A stretch of DNA of 33,595 bases, taken from contig CAUJHN010000052.1 in assembly GCA_963204825.1 (NCBI GenBank), positions 1 through 33,595 of the forward strand, read 5' to 3'. The first letter of the stretch is position 1. Each line of letters opens with the position of its first letter. The notes beneath the pieces were generated by a model. It was not told the DNA's origin. It saw only the letters and a list, made by a program, of their open reading frames with translations, and searched no databases. Below are positions 5,258-16,682 of this stretch, piece after piece. The DNA is from Pseudomonadota bacterium. Lineage in GTDB: Bacteria > Pseudomonadota > Alphaproteobacteria > Micavibrionales > Micavibrionaceae. Both the position numbers and the translations under genes were made by a program.

Positions 5258-7042
5258 TTAAAACGCCGTTTGTTCCATTTCCATCAGGGATTTTGCCCCT
5301 GATAGCACCATCTTCTGGCGGGCATCGGCTTCGGGGAGAATGCGTTCGAAGAAGAACCTCGCGGTTTTTATTTTCGAATCGTAAAACTCTTTTTTGCCGG
5401 GGTCGGTGTCCGTCATCGACTTCTCCAGCGCCACTTTCGCCATGCGCGCCCACATATAGCCAAGGGCCACGAGCGCGAACTGTCGAAGATAGTCCGAAGA
5501 GGCCGCGCCTGCTTCATTGGGATCTTTAAGACCCTTCTGGGCAATCATGGCCGTCGATTGTTGCAATTTAGAGAAAGCTTTGGCGAGCGGGAATATAAAT
5601 TCTTGCATAGCAGCATTGCTTTGGTTGCATTGCACAAATTCGTCCACCGGGTGGAAGAAGCGGCGCAAGAGCCTGCCGAAGGAGACCGACATTTTACGCC
5701 CGACGAGGTCCAGCGCCTGGATTCCGTTGGTCCCCTCATAAATCTGGGCGATGCGGGCGTCGCGCGCATATTGCTCGACTCCGTATTCCCATATATAGCC
5801 GTGACCGCCGTGGATCTGGATAGCGTGGTTGGCGATTTCAAAGCCCATATCCGTCTGGTACGCCTTCAAAATCGGCGTCATCAGGGCGACGAGGTCTTCG
5901 GCTTCTTCCCTTTTTTCAGGGTCCGTTTCCTTTTCCGAACGGTCGAGCGCCATGCCGACCCAGAAAGACAAAGCGCGGCAACCTTCTATCACCGCTTTGG
6001 AAATTAGCAGCATGCGGCGCACGTCCGGATGCACGATAATAGGGTCCGCCGGTTTATCGGGCGCTTTCGTGCCGTCCAGCGCGCGCATCTGCAAACGGTC
6101 CTTCGCGTAGGCGAGGCCATTCTGATACGCGACTTCGGCGATGCCGAGGCCCTGCATGGCCACGCCAAGGCGCGCGGTGTTCATCATCGTGAACATAGCG
6201 CGAAGGCCCTTGTGCGGTTCGCCCACAAGCCAGCCCCTGGAATCTTCGAAATTCATGACGCAGGTGGCCGATCCCTTGATCCCCATCTTGTGTTCAAGGG
6301 AGCCGCAGGTGACGGCGTTCACGCCCATCGTGTCGGGCAGGAATTTCGGCACGACGAAGAGGGAAATCCCCTTCACGCCTTCCGGCGCGTCCGGAAGCTT
6401 GGCCAGTACCAGGTGAATTATGTTGGACGTCAAATCATGTTCGCCGGCCGAAATGAAAATCTTCGTGCCTGTGATATTGTAAGATCCATCGCCGTTTGGA
6501 ACGGCCTTTGTTCTGATCAATCCCAGATCCGTGCCGCATTGCGGTTCCGTCAGGCACATCGTACCCGACCATTCGCCGGTGACGAGCTTTGGCAGATACG
6601 TATCCTTTTGTTCCTGTGTGCCGTGCAGATACAGCGCGTTATAAGCGCCTTCCGACAATCCCGGATACATGCCGAACGACATGTTGGCGGAACAAATCAT
6701 TTCCTGCAAAGCCATGCCGACGGTCAGCGGCAATCCCATCCCGCCATATTGCGGATCGGATGTCGCGCCGCACCAGCCACCTTGCGAAAACGCATCATAG
6801 GCATCTTTAAATCCGGATGGCGTTTTGACCGTGCCGTTGTCCCATGTGCATCCTTCTTTATCGCCGCTCTGATTAAGTGGAAACAAGATTTCCTCACACA
6901 TTTTCGAGCATTCTTCGAGAATGGAGTCGATCAGGTCCGGTGTCGCGTCCTGATACCCCGGCAGGGCAGATAAGCTCTCTGCACCCAGCACTTCGTGCAG
7001 AACGAATTTCATATTTTCTAAAGGGGCGGTATAGACGGGCAT
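5258..7042 (-). CDS. Acyl-CoA dehydrogenase, long form (DmdC/FadE-like)
   Basis: A 594-aa FAD enzyme for the first, double-bond-forming step of acyl-CoA oxidation. It has the longer architecture of about 600 aa with an extra C-terminal domain, seen in DmdC-type and related dehydrogenases, rather than the short 380-aa form. LTEPQCGTD (164-172) and GTKIFISAGEHD (192-203) belong to the FAD/substrate domain. IHGGHGYIWEYGVEQYARD (410-428) and YEGTNGIQ (435-442, with E436 as the likely catalytic base) are conserved. The ATG at 7040-7042 has GGAG about 6 bases upstream. Chain-length preference cannot be read from sequence, and methylmercaptopropionyl-CoA is one possible substrate. It leads an operon with the 193-aa gene, panC and SCP2. 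Confidence 0.92.
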   Translation of the reverse strand: MPVYTAPLENMKFVLHEVLGAESLSALPGYQDATPDLIDSILEECSKMCEEILFPLNQSGDKEGCTWDNGTVKTPSGFKDAYDAFSQGGWCGATSDPQYGGMGLPLTVGMALQEMICSANMSFGMYPGLSEGAYNALYLHGTQEQKDTYLPKLVTGEWSGTMCLTEPQCGTDLGLIRTKAVPNGDGSYNITGTKIFISAGEHDLTSNIIHLVLAKLPDAPEGVKGISLFVVPKFLPDTMGVNAVTCGSLEHKMGIKGSATCVMNFEDSRGWLVGEPHKGLRAMFTMMNTARLGVAMQGLGIAEVAYQNGLAYAKDRLQMRALDGTKAPDKPADPIIVHPDVRRMLLISKAVIEGCRALSFWVGMALDRSEKETDPEKREEAEDLVALMTPILKAYQTDMGFEIANHAIQIHGGHGYIWEYGVEQYARDARIAQIYEGTNGIQALDLVGRKMSVSFGRLLRRFFHPVDEFVQCNQSNAAMQEFIFPLAKAFSKLQQSTAMIAQKGLKDPNEAGAASSDYLRQFALVALGYMWARMAKVALEKSMTDTDPGKKEFYDSKIKTARFFFERILPEADARQKMVLSGAKSLMEMEQTAF

Positions 7043-7120: not shown

Positions 7121-7390
7121 TTATTTCTTCTTCGGCGTTTCGTGGCGGATCATGAATTGGATATTGTCACGGACCTTGTCGACGTCGGCGGTCTTGATCT
7201 GCGCCTTCGCCTTTTCGATGGCGGAAGACTGTTTCTTCAGTAACGCTTCTTTAATTTTTTCGAGCGTTTCGTCGCCGATTTCGGCGCGTGCGGCGGACAT
7301 ATTGGCCTTTGCCTGCGCCAGGATCTGTTCCCGGGTGGGTTTTCCCTTGCCGCCGGCGGGCTTGGCTTTGTCCTTCTTTTTCCAAAACAT
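7121..7390 (-). CDS. Small lysine/alanine-rich hypothetical protein, 89 aa
   Basis: A soluble, highly basic, helical protein beginning MFWKKKDKAKPAGG. A low-complexity basic N-terminus is followed by repeated amphipathic helices rich in A, K and E, ending in PKKK. I do not know a function; binding to nucleic acid or a membrane surface would be a guess from composition. It lies 78 bases upstream of the acyl-CoA dehydrogenase on the same strand and may lead that operon. Codon use looks like its neighbours. The frame is clean over its whole length and starts with ATG. Confidence 0.6.
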   Translation of the reverse strand: MFWKKKDKAKPAGGKGKPTREQILAQAKANMSAARAEIGDETLEKIKEALLKKQSSAIEKAKAQIKTADVDKVRDNIQFMIRHETPKKK

Positions 7391-7493
7391 GACGATTCTT
7401 ATCCTAACACACCATAATTAAAGCATTTTTAACCCGAATAGGCGACCTTAATATGGGGTATATTTTATTCCTTTTCAAAGGGCTGCATATTTC

Positions 7494-9056
7494 ATGTCCG
7501 AACAACCGAGATTAAAAGCCGTTGGCGAACCCGCCGCAGGATATAACGATCTTAAATATTATTTTGCGAACCTGCACACGCTTTTTTCGATTCGCGGCAT
7601 GCTGGCCGTCGATATGATGACGGCGATGCCCCAGGGCGGAATAGGCCGCCGCCTCAACGATATTTCCGCGATCACCAAACGCATTTATGCAGAAACGACG
7701 ACGCAAGCGGTCACGCGCCTTCTGGATCAGGTTGAAAACGAATCCCTTATCCACCCGGAAGACTGGGATAGCTGGAACCTTGCCAACCTTGCGGAGATGC
7801 GGCGCATTCATGCGCATCTCTCCGCACTGCCGCCCGATCTCTATGTTGCGTCTGTGCAGGTGGCGAGCGAAGGGCGCAAACGTCACGCCGCGGCGCGAGA
7901 GGGGCAGAACTGGAGCGAAACGCAAGCGTATCTTACGCAGGTTGTGGATCTTTACCGCCGCATATCAGAATTAAAGCAAAAGAAATTCGGCGCAGAAAGT
8001 CCTTATAAAGCGCTTCTTTTGGGATACGCCAGCGATATAAGCGAAGCAAAGATGGATTCGCTTTACGATTCCTTGTTAACCCCGCTTGCCGTCATACGCG
8101 ACAAGGCGCTGCATAAACAGCGCAATATGGAACCGCCGCTGCCGCTTGACGGCGAGTTTTCCCGCGGCGATCAGATGTGGCTGAATAAAACCATACTGGA
8201 AATGATGGGGTTCGATTTTTCCAGGGGCACTTTACAGGTCACAGCTTTATCCCCCATGACGGGAGGCTCGCCGGAAGACGTGCGCATACTGGTGCGATGC
8301 GGCAGAGACGATACGTTTTTGGATTCCATGGAAGACACGCTCTATCAGGGCGCGCGGGGACTTTACATGCAAAACCTGCCGGGCGACTGGATCACGCAGC
8401 CGGTGGGACAGGATATGGGCTCGCTTATGCTGAACACACTTTCCAATCTTTACGAAAACATCATCGGCCGAACGCCGCAGTTTTTTGACTTTATCGCGGT
8501 GCGGGCCGAAGGCGTATTCCGCCAGCTCAGAAACAAATCCTTTGAACCGGAAAATCTTTACCGCCTGAAAAAGATCATCACGCCTTCCGCACGGCGCAAC
8601 GAAGCGGATGAGCTTACCAAGATTTTTCACGACGTCATGCGGTATTACCTTGAACGCGATTTGATCAACGGGACTTTATCCGTGGAAGATTTGCCAGACA
8701 GATGGAACGAAGAGAGCCGAAAATTCCTTGGCGTTTATCCAAAAGACGCCAATGAAGGCCCGCTGCAAAATCCCGACTGGTTCACGGGCCGTTTCGGGTT
8801 TATTCCGACCAATACACTGGCCCATATCATGGCGGCTACGCTGCACGAAAAAATCTACACGGACATTCCGAGCATGAACGATATGGTCCAGTATGGCGAC
8901 CTCAAACCCATCAACCAATGGCTGAAGACCCATATCCATGAAAAGGGCCGCAGCGTCGGCGCCATAGAAATCATGGAACGCATTACCGGCGAAAAAATAT
9001 CTGCGGAGCCGCTTTTGACCCATTTGGAGCGCCGCTATTTAAGCGACAAGCGCTAG
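7494..9056 (+). CDS. Inactive homologue of M32 (Taq-type) carboxypeptidase
   Basis: A 520-aa protein matching the M32 metallocarboxypeptidase fold along its length (family about 500 aa). Preserved features include EDVRILVR (261-268), LYENIIGRTPQFF (319-331), EADELT (370-375), LPDRWNEE (400-407), the GPLQNPDWFTGRFGFIPTNTL region (422-442) and the C-terminal WLKTHIHEKG and HLERRYL blocks. The active site is gone: the HExxH helix is replaced by YQGAR (284-288) inside YQGARGLYMQ, and the HESQS motif by LNTLS (313-317). That removes both zinc histidines, the third zinc ligand and the catalytic glutamate. The frame is intact, so this is a pseudoenzyme rather than a decaying gene. It overlaps the convergent arsR stop by 4 bases. 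A scaffolding or binding role is inference. Confidence 0.82.
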   Translation: MSEQPRLKAVGEPAAGYNDLKYYFANLHTLFSIRGMLAVDMMTAMPQGGIGRRLNDISAITKRIYAETTTQAVTRLLDQVENESLIHPEDWDSWNLANLAEMRRIHAHLSALPPDLYVASVQVASEGRKRHAAAREGQNWSETQAYLTQVVDLYRRISELKQKKFGAESPYKALLLGYASDISEAKMDSLYDSLLTPLAVIRDKALHKQRNMEPPLPLDGEFSRGDQMWLNKTILEMMGFDFSRGTLQVTALSPMTGGSPEDVRILVRCGRDDTFLDSMEDTLYQGARGLYMQNLPGDWITQPVGQDMGSLMLNTLSNLYENIIGRTPQFFDFIAVRAEGVFRQLRNKSFEPENLYRLKKIITPSARRNEADELTKIFHDVMRYYLERDLINGTLSVEDLPDRWNEESRKFLGVYPKDANEGPLQNPDWFTGRFGFIPTNTLAHIMAATLHEKIYTDIPSMNDMVQYGDLKPINQWLKTHIHEKGRSVGAIEIMERITGEKISAEPLLTHLERRYLSDKR

Positions 9057-11584: not shown

Positions 11585-13987
11585 CTAATTTCTTAAAGGT
11601 TTGCCGTTTTCCAGCATATATTCGACGCGTTTTTGCGTGCCTTCGTGCTTTACCAGCTGCATGAATTCTTCGCGTTCAAGCTTATAAAGATCGTCCTCGG
11701 TCAGGGGCTTCGTCCAGTCGGCCTTTTCACCGCCCGATAACACCCGCGCCACGGCCCCCGACACGATTACATCATAGGGCGTCGCCTTGCCATTTTTGCG
11801 CATGTCCGCAACCGCCATGTCGAGGGCGAGGCGGCCGGATGGGCCCGGCAGGCGGATATCCTTCACCGGCTCAGGCGGAGCATAGTTCTTGGCAAGTTCC
11901 AGCGCCTTGGCCTTCGCATCGAACAGCAGTCGATCGCGGTTCATCGTAATACCATCCGTCTTTTTAAGGTATTTGAACTCCTTGGCCTCCTGCGCGCTCT
12001 TGGCGACCTTGGCAAGCGCTATCGTTTCAAACGCCTTGCGGGGTGCGCCCATCGGCGTGTTTTTGGGCGAGAACCACATTTTGCGGCCGCCCGTATTCTT
12101 GTCGAACTGTTCCCGTTCTTCTTCCTGATAGCGCAGCAGCATTTCCTTGCACCCGCCCCATCCGGGGATCAAACCGACTCCGACCTCGACGAGACCGGTG
12201 TAAGTTTCCGCATGCGCCTGCACATGATCCGCGTGCAGCAAAATTTCGCACCCCCCGCCAAGCGCCATGCCCGAAGGCGCCGCAACAACAGGGAACGGCG
12301 CATATTTAAGCGCCTTGTAAACCTTCTGCCCGCCGGAGACGAGCTCTTCGATCTGCGGCCAAAGGGCGATATTCATGGCAAAGATCGCAAGGCCGAGATT
12401 GGCGCCGGCGGAGAAGTTCGAGCCTTCGTTATAGATGACCATGGCTTTGTATTGCCCGTCGCCCTTGCCGATCAGCTTGATCGCCTGGTGATAGGCCTCG
12501 AACACCTGATCGTCCAGCGCGTTCATCTTGCCGGTGAATTCGACGCAGAGCACGCCATCGCCGATATCCCATACAGCGGCAGAACCGGTTTTGATGACCG
12601 GCTTGGAATTCAGTTTGATATCGGAAAGGAGCAGAACGCCTTCCGCACGCGGCACAAGGTGATACTTCCCGTCCGTCCCGTAATAATTGAGCTTCCCGTC
12701 GATGACCTTGTAGAAGGAGCCATCGCCCACAGCCTGCAGCAATTTTGGAACGGCGATTCCTTCTTCCTTCAGCTTTGCAGCAAACCATGCGGCGCCTAGC
12801 TGGTCTATCATCTCAAAAGGCCCTGATTTCCAGTTGGTGCCAAGGCGCATGGCTTCGTCGACTTCGGCAACAGAATCCGCAATATCTGGCACGAGATTCG
12901 CAGCATAAACCAGCGTATCGCGTAAAACCTTCCAGGCGTATTTCCCGCCCTGATCATCCGTTTCAACAACAGCGCGCAAGCCTTTTTTGCCCGCATCCAT
13001 GGAGGCGAGTTTTGGTTTATCGGCCTTTTTATAACCGGCTTCTTCAAATCCGTTTTGCTGCAGATCCAGCGCCTGTTTTTCCTTGCTGCCGTCGGGTTTC
13101 AGACGGTAGAACCCGCCTTTGCCCTTACGCCCGGTGTAGCCGGCTTTGATCATGCCTTCGATGAATGGGTAATCTTTATAAATTTTGCGGTATTCGTCTT
13201 CCTTGGGCAGGGTGGATAGTAAAGATTCCGCAAGGTGCGGCATAAGATCCACGCCCACGAGATCGATCAGGCCGAACACGCCCGTTTTGGGAATGCCGAC
13301 AGGTTTGGATAAAACGGCGTCGGCCACTTCCACCGACACATTGTCCGCAACCGCAACATTGAGCGCGCTCTGCATAAAGAAGGTCAGGATACGGTTGACG
13401 ATAAAGCCCGGCGTGTCTTTGCATTTCACAACGCCCTTGCCGAGTTTGATATCGCAGAAATCGATAACTTCCTTTGCCTTCGCCGCATCCGTGTCTTTGC
13501 CCGTGACAATTTCGAGCAGCCGCAGGTAACGCGGCGGATTGAAGAAGTGCGTGATCAGGAAATTCTTTTGCACGTCCTTGGACAATGGTTCAATCAGCAT
13601 CTCCAGAGGAATGGTCGATGTGTTGCTTGAAAGGATCGCGCCCGCTTTTAAGTGCTTTGCTATTTTTTCGTATGTCGCGTGTTTGATTTTAAGGTCTTCC
13701 AAAACGACTTCCACGACCCAGTCGCAGTCTTCCAGCAATTTCAAGTCATCTTCCAGATTGCCGGGCGTGATCAGCTTCGCGTTCCGCGCCGACATAAAAG
13801 GCGCCGGGTCCTGTTTTAAAAGTTTTTCAATCGCACCCTTCGCGATTTTGCTGCGGTCTTCGCCATCGGCCAGGTTCTTTGGCACAATATCCAGAAGCAC
13901 AACCGGAACACCTGCGTTGGCCACCTGGGCCGCGATGCCGCTTCCCATGACTCCGGAGCCTATAACAGCGACTTTCTGAATGGTCAT
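11585..13987 (-). CDS. fadN: 3-hydroxyacyl-CoA dehydrogenase / enoyl-CoA hydratase (FadN type)
   Basis: An 800-aa bifunctional beta-oxidation enzyme. The order is dehydrogenase first and hydratase last, as in Bacillus FadN and opposite to E. coli FadB. The NAD-binding motif is GSGVMGSG (10-17), SSNTSTIP (120-127) is typical, and HFFNPP carries catalytic H147; a second dehydrogenase C-domain spans about 185-300. The hydratase part has NFSAGAN (524-530), ALGGGCE (575-581, with E581) and LVEVGVGLIPGWGG with E601, matching the two catalytic glutamates of crotonases. The ATG at 13985-13987 has AAAGG 9 bases upstream. It follows the 384-aa unknown and fadA on the same strand. It supplies steps two and three of the cycle that fadA completes. 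Confidence 0.93.
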   Translation of the reverse strand: MTIQKVAVIGSGVMGSGIAAQVANAGVPVVLLDIVPKNLADGEDRSKIAKGAIEKLLKQDPAPFMSARNAKLITPGNLEDDLKLLEDCDWVVEVVLEDLKIKHATYEKIAKHLKAGAILSSNTSTIPLEMLIEPLSKDVQKNFLITHFFNPPRYLRLLEIVTGKDTDAAKAKEVIDFCDIKLGKGVVKCKDTPGFIVNRILTFFMQSALNVAVADNVSVEVADAVLSKPVGIPKTGVFGLIDLVGVDLMPHLAESLLSTLPKEDEYRKIYKDYPFIEGMIKAGYTGRKGKGGFYRLKPDGSKEKQALDLQQNGFEEAGYKKADKPKLASMDAGKKGLRAVVETDDQGGKYAWKVLRDTLVYAANLVPDIADSVAEVDEAMRLGTNWKSGPFEMIDQLGAAWFAAKLKEEGIAVPKLLQAVGDGSFYKVIDGKLNYYGTDGKYHLVPRAEGVLLLSDIKLNSKPVIKTGSAAVWDIGDGVLCVEFTGKMNALDDQVFEAYHQAIKLIGKGDGQYKAMVIYNEGSNFSAGANLGLAIFAMNIALWPQIEELVSGGQKVYKALKYAPFPVVAAPSGMALGGGCEILLHADHVQAHAETYTGLVEVGVGLIPGWGGCKEMLLRYQEEEREQFDKNTGGRKMWFSPKNTPMGAPRKAFETIALAKVAKSAQEAKEFKYLKKTDGITMNRDRLLFDAKAKALELAKNYAPPEPVKDIRLPGPSGRLALDMAVADMRKNGKATPYDVIVSGAVARVLSGGEKADWTKPLTEDDLYKLEREEFMQLVKHEGTQKRVEYMLENGKPLRN

Positions 13988-14058: not shown

Positions 14059-15213
14059 TTAGTTGCCGCCTTCCGCCGGCGTATTCGCCATATATTCCCG
14101 GGTCTGGGTGAATAATTTATTAAGGGTCGCCGTCGTTATTTCCATTTCATTGAAAATAGGCCCGAGAGTTTTGAACCTGCCCATCAGGGCGCGGGTGGGT
14201 ATAAGAATTGTCTGCTCCTGTTTTTTGGCATAATCCGGATCATTATGGACCCTGGCCGCCAGGGACAGCAGCTTCGCATGGTGGATGATCAGCCCTTCGA
14301 TGGAACCTACCCTGCCCAGAAGATACCCCTGATGCAGGAGGTTCTTATATTGAAAAACCATGTACGGGACGTTGTATTTATCCACAAAGGCGTTGATTCT
14401 CTCTTCATCGCTTTTCAAAAAGGCCGTGATGAGTCCCAACTCCCCGGAATGCAGAACCAGCCCGTCCTGCGCCGTCAGTTCGCCGGTGTTCTTCTGCGCC
14501 ATGTCGATAATCTTCAAGGCCGACGCTTTCAGCCGCAGATCGGACCAGCCGCTCACAATGGCCCCGGCCTGCACAAAGTGCTGTTTGCGCACGGCGCCCT
14601 TGAACAGGGTCAACTGCCGTGAGCCTTCCTCATGGCCCATTATGCGCGGCAAATTCGCACCAAGAGATTCAAGAAGCGGATCGAAATGCCGAAGAAGGGA
14701 TTTTATGCGGTCCAGACGCAATCTTTTTTCCATGATCGTTTTACGGTCTTTGTGCGCCCGCTGCAGTATTTCTCCTGTCGCATGGTTTACCTGCAATGTA
14801 TCGACCAGATCATCCACATTGTAATTTTTGCTTAAGCTGCCGATCTGGGCCCTCGCATGGATCAATTCGCGGTTCAGCTCCAGATAGCAAAGAGCGTAGC
14901 GGTAAAACTGCCGCTCATACGCTTCAAGCGTGGCCAACGCTTCCCGCGCATTGCTGCGGGATAAGGCGCAGCAAATGGTGTCGTCGTGCCGTTCTTCTTC
15001 ATCGGCGCGCCATTCGGCCATAAAAGCAAAATAGTCGCGGCACAGGCGGCGCAGATCCTTTTGCACTTCCGTCAACTGCGAAGGGTCGCGTATTTTTTCA
15101 GCGGACTGAATGAGATGCCACAGATTCGTGTAAAAGCGGCGGGCATGGTCGTCGTGACCTATACCATGAAGCTGGAAAGCAAACTCCAACTGTTCAGAAT
15201 CCAAAAGCTGCAA
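14059..15213 (-). CDS. Hypothetical protein, 384 aa, between fadA and fadN
   Basis: I do not recognise this family. It is soluble and looks almost entirely alpha-helical, with charged stretches in the first half (for example EWRADEEERHDD near 67-78, and a heptad-like run near 140-175) and a more hydrophobic second half. No catalytic motif or signal peptide stands out. The only usable start is TTG at 15211-15213, with GGGG about 8 bases upstream and an in-frame stop not far above; ATG starts inside would discard much of the frame. It lies 71 bases before fadN and 146 bases after fadA on the same strand. A role in fatty-acid metabolism would be guilt by association only. Confidence 0.7.
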   Translation of the reverse strand: MQLLDSEQLEFAFQLHGIGHDDHARRFYTNLWHLIQSAEKIRDPSQLTEVQKDLRRLCRDYFAFMAEWRADEEERHDDTICCALSRSNAREALATLEAYERQFYRYALCYLELNRELIHARAQIGSLSKNYNVDDLVDTLQVNHATGEILQRAHKDRKTIMEKRLRLDRIKSLLRHFDPLLESLGANLPRIMGHEEGSRQLTLFKGAVRKQHFVQAGAIVSGWSDLRLKASALKIIDMAQKNTGELTAQDGLVLHSGELGLITAFLKSDEERINAFVDKYNVPYMVFQYKNLLHQGYLLGRVGSIEGLIIHHAKLLSLAARVHNDPDYAKKQEQTILIPTRALMGRFKTLGPIFNEMEITTATLNKLFTQTREYMANTPAEGGN

Positions 15214-15359: not shown

Positions 15360-16487
15360 TCATACGGATTCCAGGACGATGGCGACCCCTTGGCCCCCGC
15401 CGATACACATGGTGGCCAGGCCGCGCTTTTTCTTTTCGCGTTTCAGCAGGCTGGCAAGTTTTCCGACAATACGGGCGCCGGAAGCGCCCAGCGGGTGGCC
15501 CATGGCAATCGCGCCACCATCAAGATTGGTCTTGGCAAGATCGATGCCAAGATCCTTGATGACGGAAAGCCCTTGCGCCGCGAAAGCTTCGTTCAGTTCG
15601 ACGATATCGATATCTTTCATGGAAAGCTTTGCTCTTTGCAGCGCTTTTTGAGAGGCGGGCACCGGACCGATGCCCATGATTTCCGCGCCGCAGCCCGCGA
15701 CGCCGACGGATTTGATCCGCGCCAGGATCGGCAATTTGTTTTTCTTGGCGTATTCTTCGGAGCAGACAAGAACTGCGGCTGCGCCATCCGTCAGCGGAGA
15801 CGCCGTGCCCGCCGTCACAGTGCCGTTTTCGTCAAAGGCAAGTTTGAGGCCGGCAAGACCTTCCAGCGTCGTTTCGGGACGGATGGTACCATCTTCGGTA
15901 ACACCGGCGATCGGCACAATCTCATCCTTGAATTTTCCGGCATCGCGCGCCTTTGCGGCTTTCTGGTGGGAAGACACCGCGAATTCTTCCTGTTCTTTAC
16001 GGGATATAGAATATTTTTTAGCAAGGTTTTCCGCCGTTTCCCCCATGTTGATATAGGCCTGCGGATAGGTTTCCGCGAGCTTGGGGTTCGGCATGGGATT
16101 AAAACCGCCCATCGGAATGCGCGTCATGGATTCAACGCCGGCGCAGATAAACACATCGCCGGCATCCATCTGGATGTAACCGGCGGCCATTTGAACGGTC
16201 GTCATGGAAGACCCGCAGAAGCGGTTTACGGTTGCGCCCGCCACGGTGTGCGGCAGGCCGGCAAGCTGCGCGACGATTTTGGCAAGGTTGAAGCCCTGTT
16301 CGGCTTCGGGGAAGGCGCAGCCCATGAGTATATCTTCGATATCTTCAGGCTTAACCCCGGTTTCCTTGATCAAGGCCTTGATGACTTCGGCCGCCATATC
16401 GTCCGGGCGCACACCCGCCAGCGCGCCTTTGCCCGCAAAGTGAAAGGGGGTGCGTTTGAAGCCACAGATAACGACCGGTTTTTGCAT
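15360..16487 (-). CDS. fadA: Acetyl-CoA C-acyltransferase (thiolase)
   Basis: A 375-aa thiolase that cleaves 3-ketoacyl-CoA with CoA in the last beta-oxidation step, or forms acetoacetyl-CoA in reverse. The catalytic residues are C91 in VNRFCGSSM, H331 in GGAIAMGHPLGASGARI, and C361 in CIGGGQG. The start is ATG at 16485-16487, which has a near-perfect AGGAGG 6 bases upstream and opens with the family N-terminus QKPVVICGFKRTPF; the longer frame up to 16520 adds 11 residues without support. It heads the probable fadA - unknown - fadN operon. Degradative versus biosynthetic use cannot be settled from sequence, but the FadN partner favours degradation. Confidence 0.93.
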   Translation of the reverse strand: MQKPVVICGFKRTPFHFAGKGALAGVRPDDMAAEVIKALIKETGVKPEDIEDILMGCAFPEAEQGFNLAKIVAQLAGLPHTVAGATVNRFCGSSMTTVQMAAGYIQMDAGDVFICAGVESMTRIPMGGFNPMPNPKLAETYPQAYINMGETAENLAKKYSISRKEQEEFAVSSHQKAAKARDAGKFKDEIVPIAGVTEDGTIRPETTLEGLAGLKLAFDENGTVTAGTASPLTDGAAAVLVCSEEYAKKNKLPILARIKSVGVAGCGAEIMGIGPVPASQKALQRAKLSMKDIDIVELNEAFAAQGLSVIKDLGIDLAKTNLDGGAIAMGHPLGASGARIVGKLASLLKREKKKRGLATMCIGGGQGVAIVLESV

Positions 16488-16682
16488 GGAATTCCTCCTG
16501 ATACGGCCATTGTGCCGCACAAAAATGATAATAACCTTAACAGCCTAATAGATAAATGGGGGGTGCGACAATGGCTTTCAAGCCTTCCGGCGGCCGCATA
16601 TTCATTTGACATGGCGAACAAAATCGGGCAGCTAGAAACACGATTTCGTAAACCAATCATTCTATGCCCGACGGAGGGAATT

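Follow-up and report, generated by a model that had tools for sequence, protein, structure and literature searches.

The 520-codon stop-free frame at positions 7494-9056 (+) of the window (the whole stretch of DNA analysed, 33,595 nucleotides) encodes a relative of the M32 carboxypeptidases whose zinc site has been replaced, and it raises the question of what such a protein can still be selected for. The reading favoured here, with a probability of roughly 0.6, is a CtrA-controlled pseudopeptidase (pseudo-M32) that neither carries zinc nor cuts, and that would act by binding through a refitted, metal-free pocket.

The assignment of the gene rests on the reading frame, Pfam, phmmer and AlphaFold2/Foldseek. 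PF02074 (Peptidase_M32) covers residues 20-515 and profile positions 2-489 of 489 (E 7.2e-95; 318.9 bits against a cut-off of 25.1), and the closest solved sequences are the M32 carboxypeptidases of Thermus, Fervidobacterium, Chitinophaga and Trypanosoma. The AlphaFold2 model, built with 34 sequences, reaches a mean pLDDT of 90.6 and a pTM of 0.91; in the Foldseek comparison of this model with the PDB, the top 14 matches are M32 chains (TM-scores of 0.84-0.91 by query and 0.88-0.94 by target), followed by ACE/ACE2 with TM ~0.6. Collectively, the Pfam coverage, the nearest solved sequences, the model and its structural matches indicate a predicted M32 fold along the whole protein, consistent with the full-length M32 alignment described in an earlier note on this DNA. 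NCBIfam gives no match for P0001.

In the phmmer/HMMER alignment with the Thermus carboxypeptidase (5wvu/3hoa), 'tlyqgarglymq' lies opposite 'TLHEMGHALYEQ' and 'lntls' opposite 'VHESQS'; consequently, Y284, Q285, R288 and N314 fill the three zinc-ligand columns and the column of the catalytic glutamate. The alignment columns thereby bear out the earlier reading that HExxH has become YQGAR (residues 284-288; 8343-8357, +) and HESQS has become LNTLS (residues 313-317; 8430-8444, +), with N314 in the third zinc-ligand column. Misalignment of the motifs is ruled out by two independent multiple alignments together with the phmmer alignment, and neither HExxH nor an intact M32 zinc motif, which the earlier note had named as possible counter-evidence, occurs elsewhere in the 520 residues.

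The rewriting extends beyond the zinc ligands. All 58 intact M32s carry His284, Glu285, His288, Glu314, Tyr376, Asp426, His428, Tyr440 and Gly443 in the corresponding alignment columns. HExxH is missing from every one of the 19 members of the zinc-less clade, and YQGA is invariant among them: column 284 is Tyr and column 285 Gln throughout, while column 288 holds Arg, Lys, Cys and Ser in 15, 2, 1 and 1 copies, and column 314 holds Asn, Thr, Glu and Asp in 16, 1, 1 and 1. The further swaps of universal residues are Y376K (8619-8621, +; Lys in 17 copies and Arg in 2), D426N (Asn in 17), H428D (Asp in 18), Y440N (8811-8813, +; Asn in 16) and G443S (Ser in 17), so that the GxxQDxHW segment reads GPLQNPDW, with QNPDW (residues 425-429; 8766-8780, +) in place of QDxHW. 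Other residues of the shell persist: R264, the Arg of DxRxT, and W429 are retained in 19/19 copies, and R368 of IRxxAD in 18/19. DxRxT itself reads D262-V-R264-I-L266, with Asp and Arg retained and Thr changed to Leu; this change is not decisive, because the intact Micavibrionaceae M32s have Val at that position. Likewise, R368, A371 and D372 of IRxxAD are kept and the Ile is not, as is also the case in the intact set of the family. Judged from these residues, pseudo-M32 should be unable to form the zinc site of an active M32 carboxypeptidase (EC 3.4.17.19), and the loss of its peptidase activity is near certain.

A search of 104 Micavibrionaceae genomes for zinc-less M32 copies identifies one in 19 genomes of six genera. 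The core set comprises 16 copies (the window copy and 15 orthologues, 63-77% identity) from genera g1, g30, g35 and g53, and the distant members G015, G069 and G034 (L008, L049 and L072) show 39-43% identity. The zinc-less copies form one side of a branch with support of 100/100 (tree with 17 sampled), and this grouping persists without all motif columns (100/99; 13 sampled). The other M32s split off as an outgroup, leaving the zinc-less clade beside the intact Micavibrionaceae M32s in unrooted trees; the G034 copy sits on a very long branch. Homologues in related genomes, where the earlier note had proposed to look, thus share the substitutions within a single clade, and the sister species appear, from their sequences, not to hold an active enzyme at the pseudo-M32 locus. 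The earlier claim that all three zinc ligands are gone stands for 17 of the 19 copies and fails for two members of genus g14, G015 and G069, whose third-ligand position is still acidic (MEAHS and IDAHS). Because these two keep Glu/Asp there, the loss of HExxH probably preceded that of the third-ligand Glu; together with G034, they help to order the steps of zinc-site loss.

Outside the family, no motif loss is found among 17 class-level M32 loci and the best-scoring 30 phylum-level loci, a phylum-level sample biased towards intact motifs; all keep HExxH/HESQ. Within this sample, a widespread loss of motifs in M32 is rejected, and the loss of the zinc site appears to be lineage-specific as far as sampled. 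Distant M32 hits of the family with odd motifs lie outside the zinc-less clade and were excluded; among these, the M32-like proteins of two relatives (L085 and L086) carry HERLGH/HERIGH, an HExxxH spacing that resembles the HExxxH tubulin carboxypeptidase family. As to nomenclature, both Micavibrio sp. UBA7689 and Alphaproteobacteria occur as record names within the host family; the NCBI ranks of record L033 put the name Micavibrio under Bdellovibrionota, and sister records are called Alphaproteobacteria.

Pseudo-M32 appears to be switched on by CtrA. The CtrA-type box TTAAAGCATTTTTAAC at 7418-7433 (+), upstream of the gene, is the only exact TTAA-N7-TTAAC match in the window, where 0.17 would be expected, and a -10-like hexamer, TAATAT, is found 15 bp past it (7449-7454, +; TATAAT, TATACT or TATAGT in most orthologues). 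The box is located 47-112 bp before the start codon in 16/16 core copies, with the hexamer about 15 bp on in most of them, and core neighbourhoods totalling 286,837 bp contain no further site of this type. It is absent before 15/15 intact paralogues (192-400 bp read), from all 15 other loci with ACAD and/or FadB (relatives or distant members) and from the distant copies of G015, G069 and G034. The genome encodes a CtrA orthologue (NF045991, 412 bits against a cut-off of 350) and contains 24 TTAA-N7-TTAAC matches versus 8 in the reversed control, about three times as many, with some palindromic sites counted twice. Other sites adjoin genes for flagellin, a CheY-like protein and pyruvate phosphate dikinase, as well as several genes whose products have no Pfam match, and together these make up a draft regulon; sites at flagellin and CheY-like genes are as expected for CtrA, the alphaproteobacterial regulator of motility and the cell cycle (PMC3692519). 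CtrA control of pseudo-M32 is thus well supported at the sequence level.

A small, charged divergent ORF of 89 residues (MFWKKK...; 7121-7390, −) is conserved in most core genomes and occurs also in some relatives without pseudo-M32 (L134 and L137). The possibility that the box belongs to this ORF was rejected, as the box persists in G061, G064 and G066, where the ORF was not found, and two relatives with the ORF and without pseudo-M32 lack the box in the fetched loci.

A second M32 gene, of the active type by its motifs, is present elsewhere in the genome, as the earlier note had thought worth checking. This intact paralogue (G000:C102) carries HEGGH and QESQA and lies on another contig, adjoining thrC (threonine synthase). 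It shares 38% identity, the same length and the same fold family with pseudo-M32, and differs from it in its full active site, its thrC neighbour and its lack of a CtrA box. M32 enzymes are dimers, with helices 1 and 2 forming the interface in ChtCP (PMC7918520), and pseudo-M32 might accordingly associate with the intact paralogue in a hetero-oligomer and regulate it, in the manner of the active/inactive subunit pairs of M16. The dimer-face helices are about equally conserved in both paralogues (0.86/0.79 in zinc-less and 0.84/0.81 in intact copies), and an intact M32 accompanies pseudo-M32 in 18/19 hosts versus 34/85 other genomes of the family (Fisher p 1.5e-5, kinship not corrected). However, one genome (G066; C38, L151, 1-530) holds a pseudo copy and no intact M32: a lysine-rich AKK-repeat gene, which is the upstream neighbour of the intact M32 in other genomes, runs here directly to thrC, and the intact gene seems to have been lost cleanly. 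The pseudo copy can therefore persist without the intact one, which speaks against an obligate partnership. Furthermore, the intact M32s of G015 and G069 belong solely to another subgroup, and the two genes share neither a contig nor a CtrA box. A regulatory subunit of this kind is, on balance, unlikely.

The surroundings of the gene suggest another possibility. An acyl-CoA dehydrogenase gene (5258-7042, −) is its divergent neighbour in 15/15 readable core genomes, and it faces pseudo-M32 in the distant G034 too, across a gap of 82 bp. FadL, FadB and thiolase genes surround pseudo-M32; the beta-oxidation cluster includes a FadB-type 3-hydroxyacyl-CoA dehydrogenase/enoyl-CoA hydratase (11585-13987, −) and a FadA-type thiolase (15360-16520, −). 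Between these two lies a 384-residue ORF (14059-15213, −) with no Pfam match, whose relative is clear in G002 (55%) and weak or missing in other genomes. A functional link of pseudo-M32 to beta-oxidation is possible, and the old pocket might host a new, metal-free catalysis, for example on an acyl-CoA-related or amide substrate, through the invariant Tyr, Gln, Lys and Asp. The position of the gene within the cluster would suit such an activity, and the replacement residues are invariant in the way that catalytic residues are; on the other hand, they match no known triad or motif. In addition, the FadB and acyl-CoA dehydrogenase genes stand in the same neighbourhood in 11 relatives without pseudo-M32, where the space between them is empty or filled by other genes. 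Pseudo-M32 would for this reason have entered a beta-oxidation locus that already existed, or been retained there, and its linkage may say no more than where it was inserted. New catalysis is thus considered improbable.

Selection on the protein is strong. The codon model gives omega of 0.064 for the 16 core zinc-less copies versus 0.071 for the 15 intact paralogues of the same genomes, absolute values that are rough since synonymous sites are likely saturated; both groups are under strong purifying selection, and pseudo-M32 is constrained as strongly as the intact enzymes. The mean pairwise identity is 68% for the zinc-less copies and 67% for the intact paralogues. Catalytic residues are therefore lost across an orthologous clade of 19 copies that is under purifying selection, which is the mark of a pseudoenzyme. 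The selected loss of catalysis that the earlier note had proposed agrees with the shared substitutions, the single clade, the two omega values and the intact copy elsewhere in the genome. The new role that it put forward, as a peptide binder, a scaffold or a regulator, is a candidate reading.

Regional conservation indicates where the constraint falls. The helix derived from HExxH scores 0.90 in the zinc-less and 0.88 in the intact copies, whereas the beta-hairpin 245-267, with the DxRxT strand, scores 0.66 versus 0.97. These values, taken from the alignments, describe a pocket that looks refitted and a substrate-side strand that looks relaxed, and the relaxed hairpin makes it doubtful that a peptide is held in the usual M32 way. 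The zinc-less copies exceed the intact paralogues in helix 12 (0.90 versus 0.77) and helix 14 (0.86 versus 0.65), and these gains, together with the relaxed hairpin, would also fit a purely structural or scaffold protein in which the pocket has become packed core and the function lies on the outer surface of helices 12 and 14. This is quite improbable, as the shell of the old pocket is itself highly conserved (mean 0.87 versus 0.92 in the intact enzymes) and contains many polar or charged residues. A functionless, decaying duplicate, to which the lost motifs alone might point, has a negligible chance of being correct given the omega of 0.064 versus 0.071, 19/19 open frames, the invariant YQGA and the conserved promoter box, and a sequencing artefact is ruled out by the omega values and the 19 open orthologues.

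The CtrA-controlled pseudopeptidase would trace back to a single duplication close to the base of the Micavibrionaceae M32s. In its subsequent evolution, the zinc site and much of the catalytic shell around it were swapped for a largely fixed set of residues (Y284, Q285, A287, R/K288, N314, K376, N426, D428, N440 and S443), with retention of the fold, helices 1-2 and the shell residues R264, R368, E373, H379 and W429. The loss of Glu285, Glu314 and Asp426 and the gain of Arg288 and Lys376, set against one new Asp428, would shift the protein side of the pocket towards positive charge, and the added Arg/Lys charge may partly substitute for Zn2+. The refitted pocket would then take its ligand without a metal. 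Since R264 and R368 are retained alongside this more positive pocket, the ligand would, most simply, be anionic. The protein would work by binding, as a sensor, a sequestering protein or a partner protein, within the CtrA programme. A more specific version, in which pseudo-M32 is a metal-free ligand sensor with Arg/Lys replacing the zinc ion in the CtrA cell-cycle/motility programme, and represents both the first inactive M32 clade and the first one tied to CtrA, can be put forward only tentatively.

Animals and fungi supply the best-known pseudopeptidases. The present clade offers a clean bacterial case: an intact paralogue is at hand, intermediate relatives have kept an acidic third ligand, the residue losses can be put in a probable order, and the promoter hints at when the protein is used. 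How a zinc site can be replaced while the pocket is retained can be tested directly here, and the clade may point to a part of the CtrA programme of Micavibrio-like bacteria that is as yet unexplored. In agreement with the earlier note, which knew of none, no described inactive M32 clade was found in the open-access papers searched, and M32 is unmentioned in a 2024 review of pseudometallopeptidases (PMC11266112). In the M12, M14, M16 and other families covered there, inactive homologues are selectively kept beside active ones; M12, M14 and M16 pseudometallopeptidases differ from pseudo-M32 in family, in host, here bacterial, and in its CtrA link. The pseudo-orthocaspases (PMC6426788) are a bacterial protease lineage whose catalytic residues are replaced by fixed Tyr and Ser, although their cysteine peptidase fold belongs to a family unrelated to M32. 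The closest known systems are the M32 carboxypeptidases themselves (Thermus/Taq CP, Pyrococcus CP, BsuCP and ChtCP; PF02074): pseudo-M32 has in common with them the whole-length sequence and fold, helices 1-2, R264 of DxRxT, the Arg and AD of IRxxAD and W429, whereas its replaced parts are HExxH, HESQ, two conserved Tyr and, within GxxQDxHW, both the Asp and the His.
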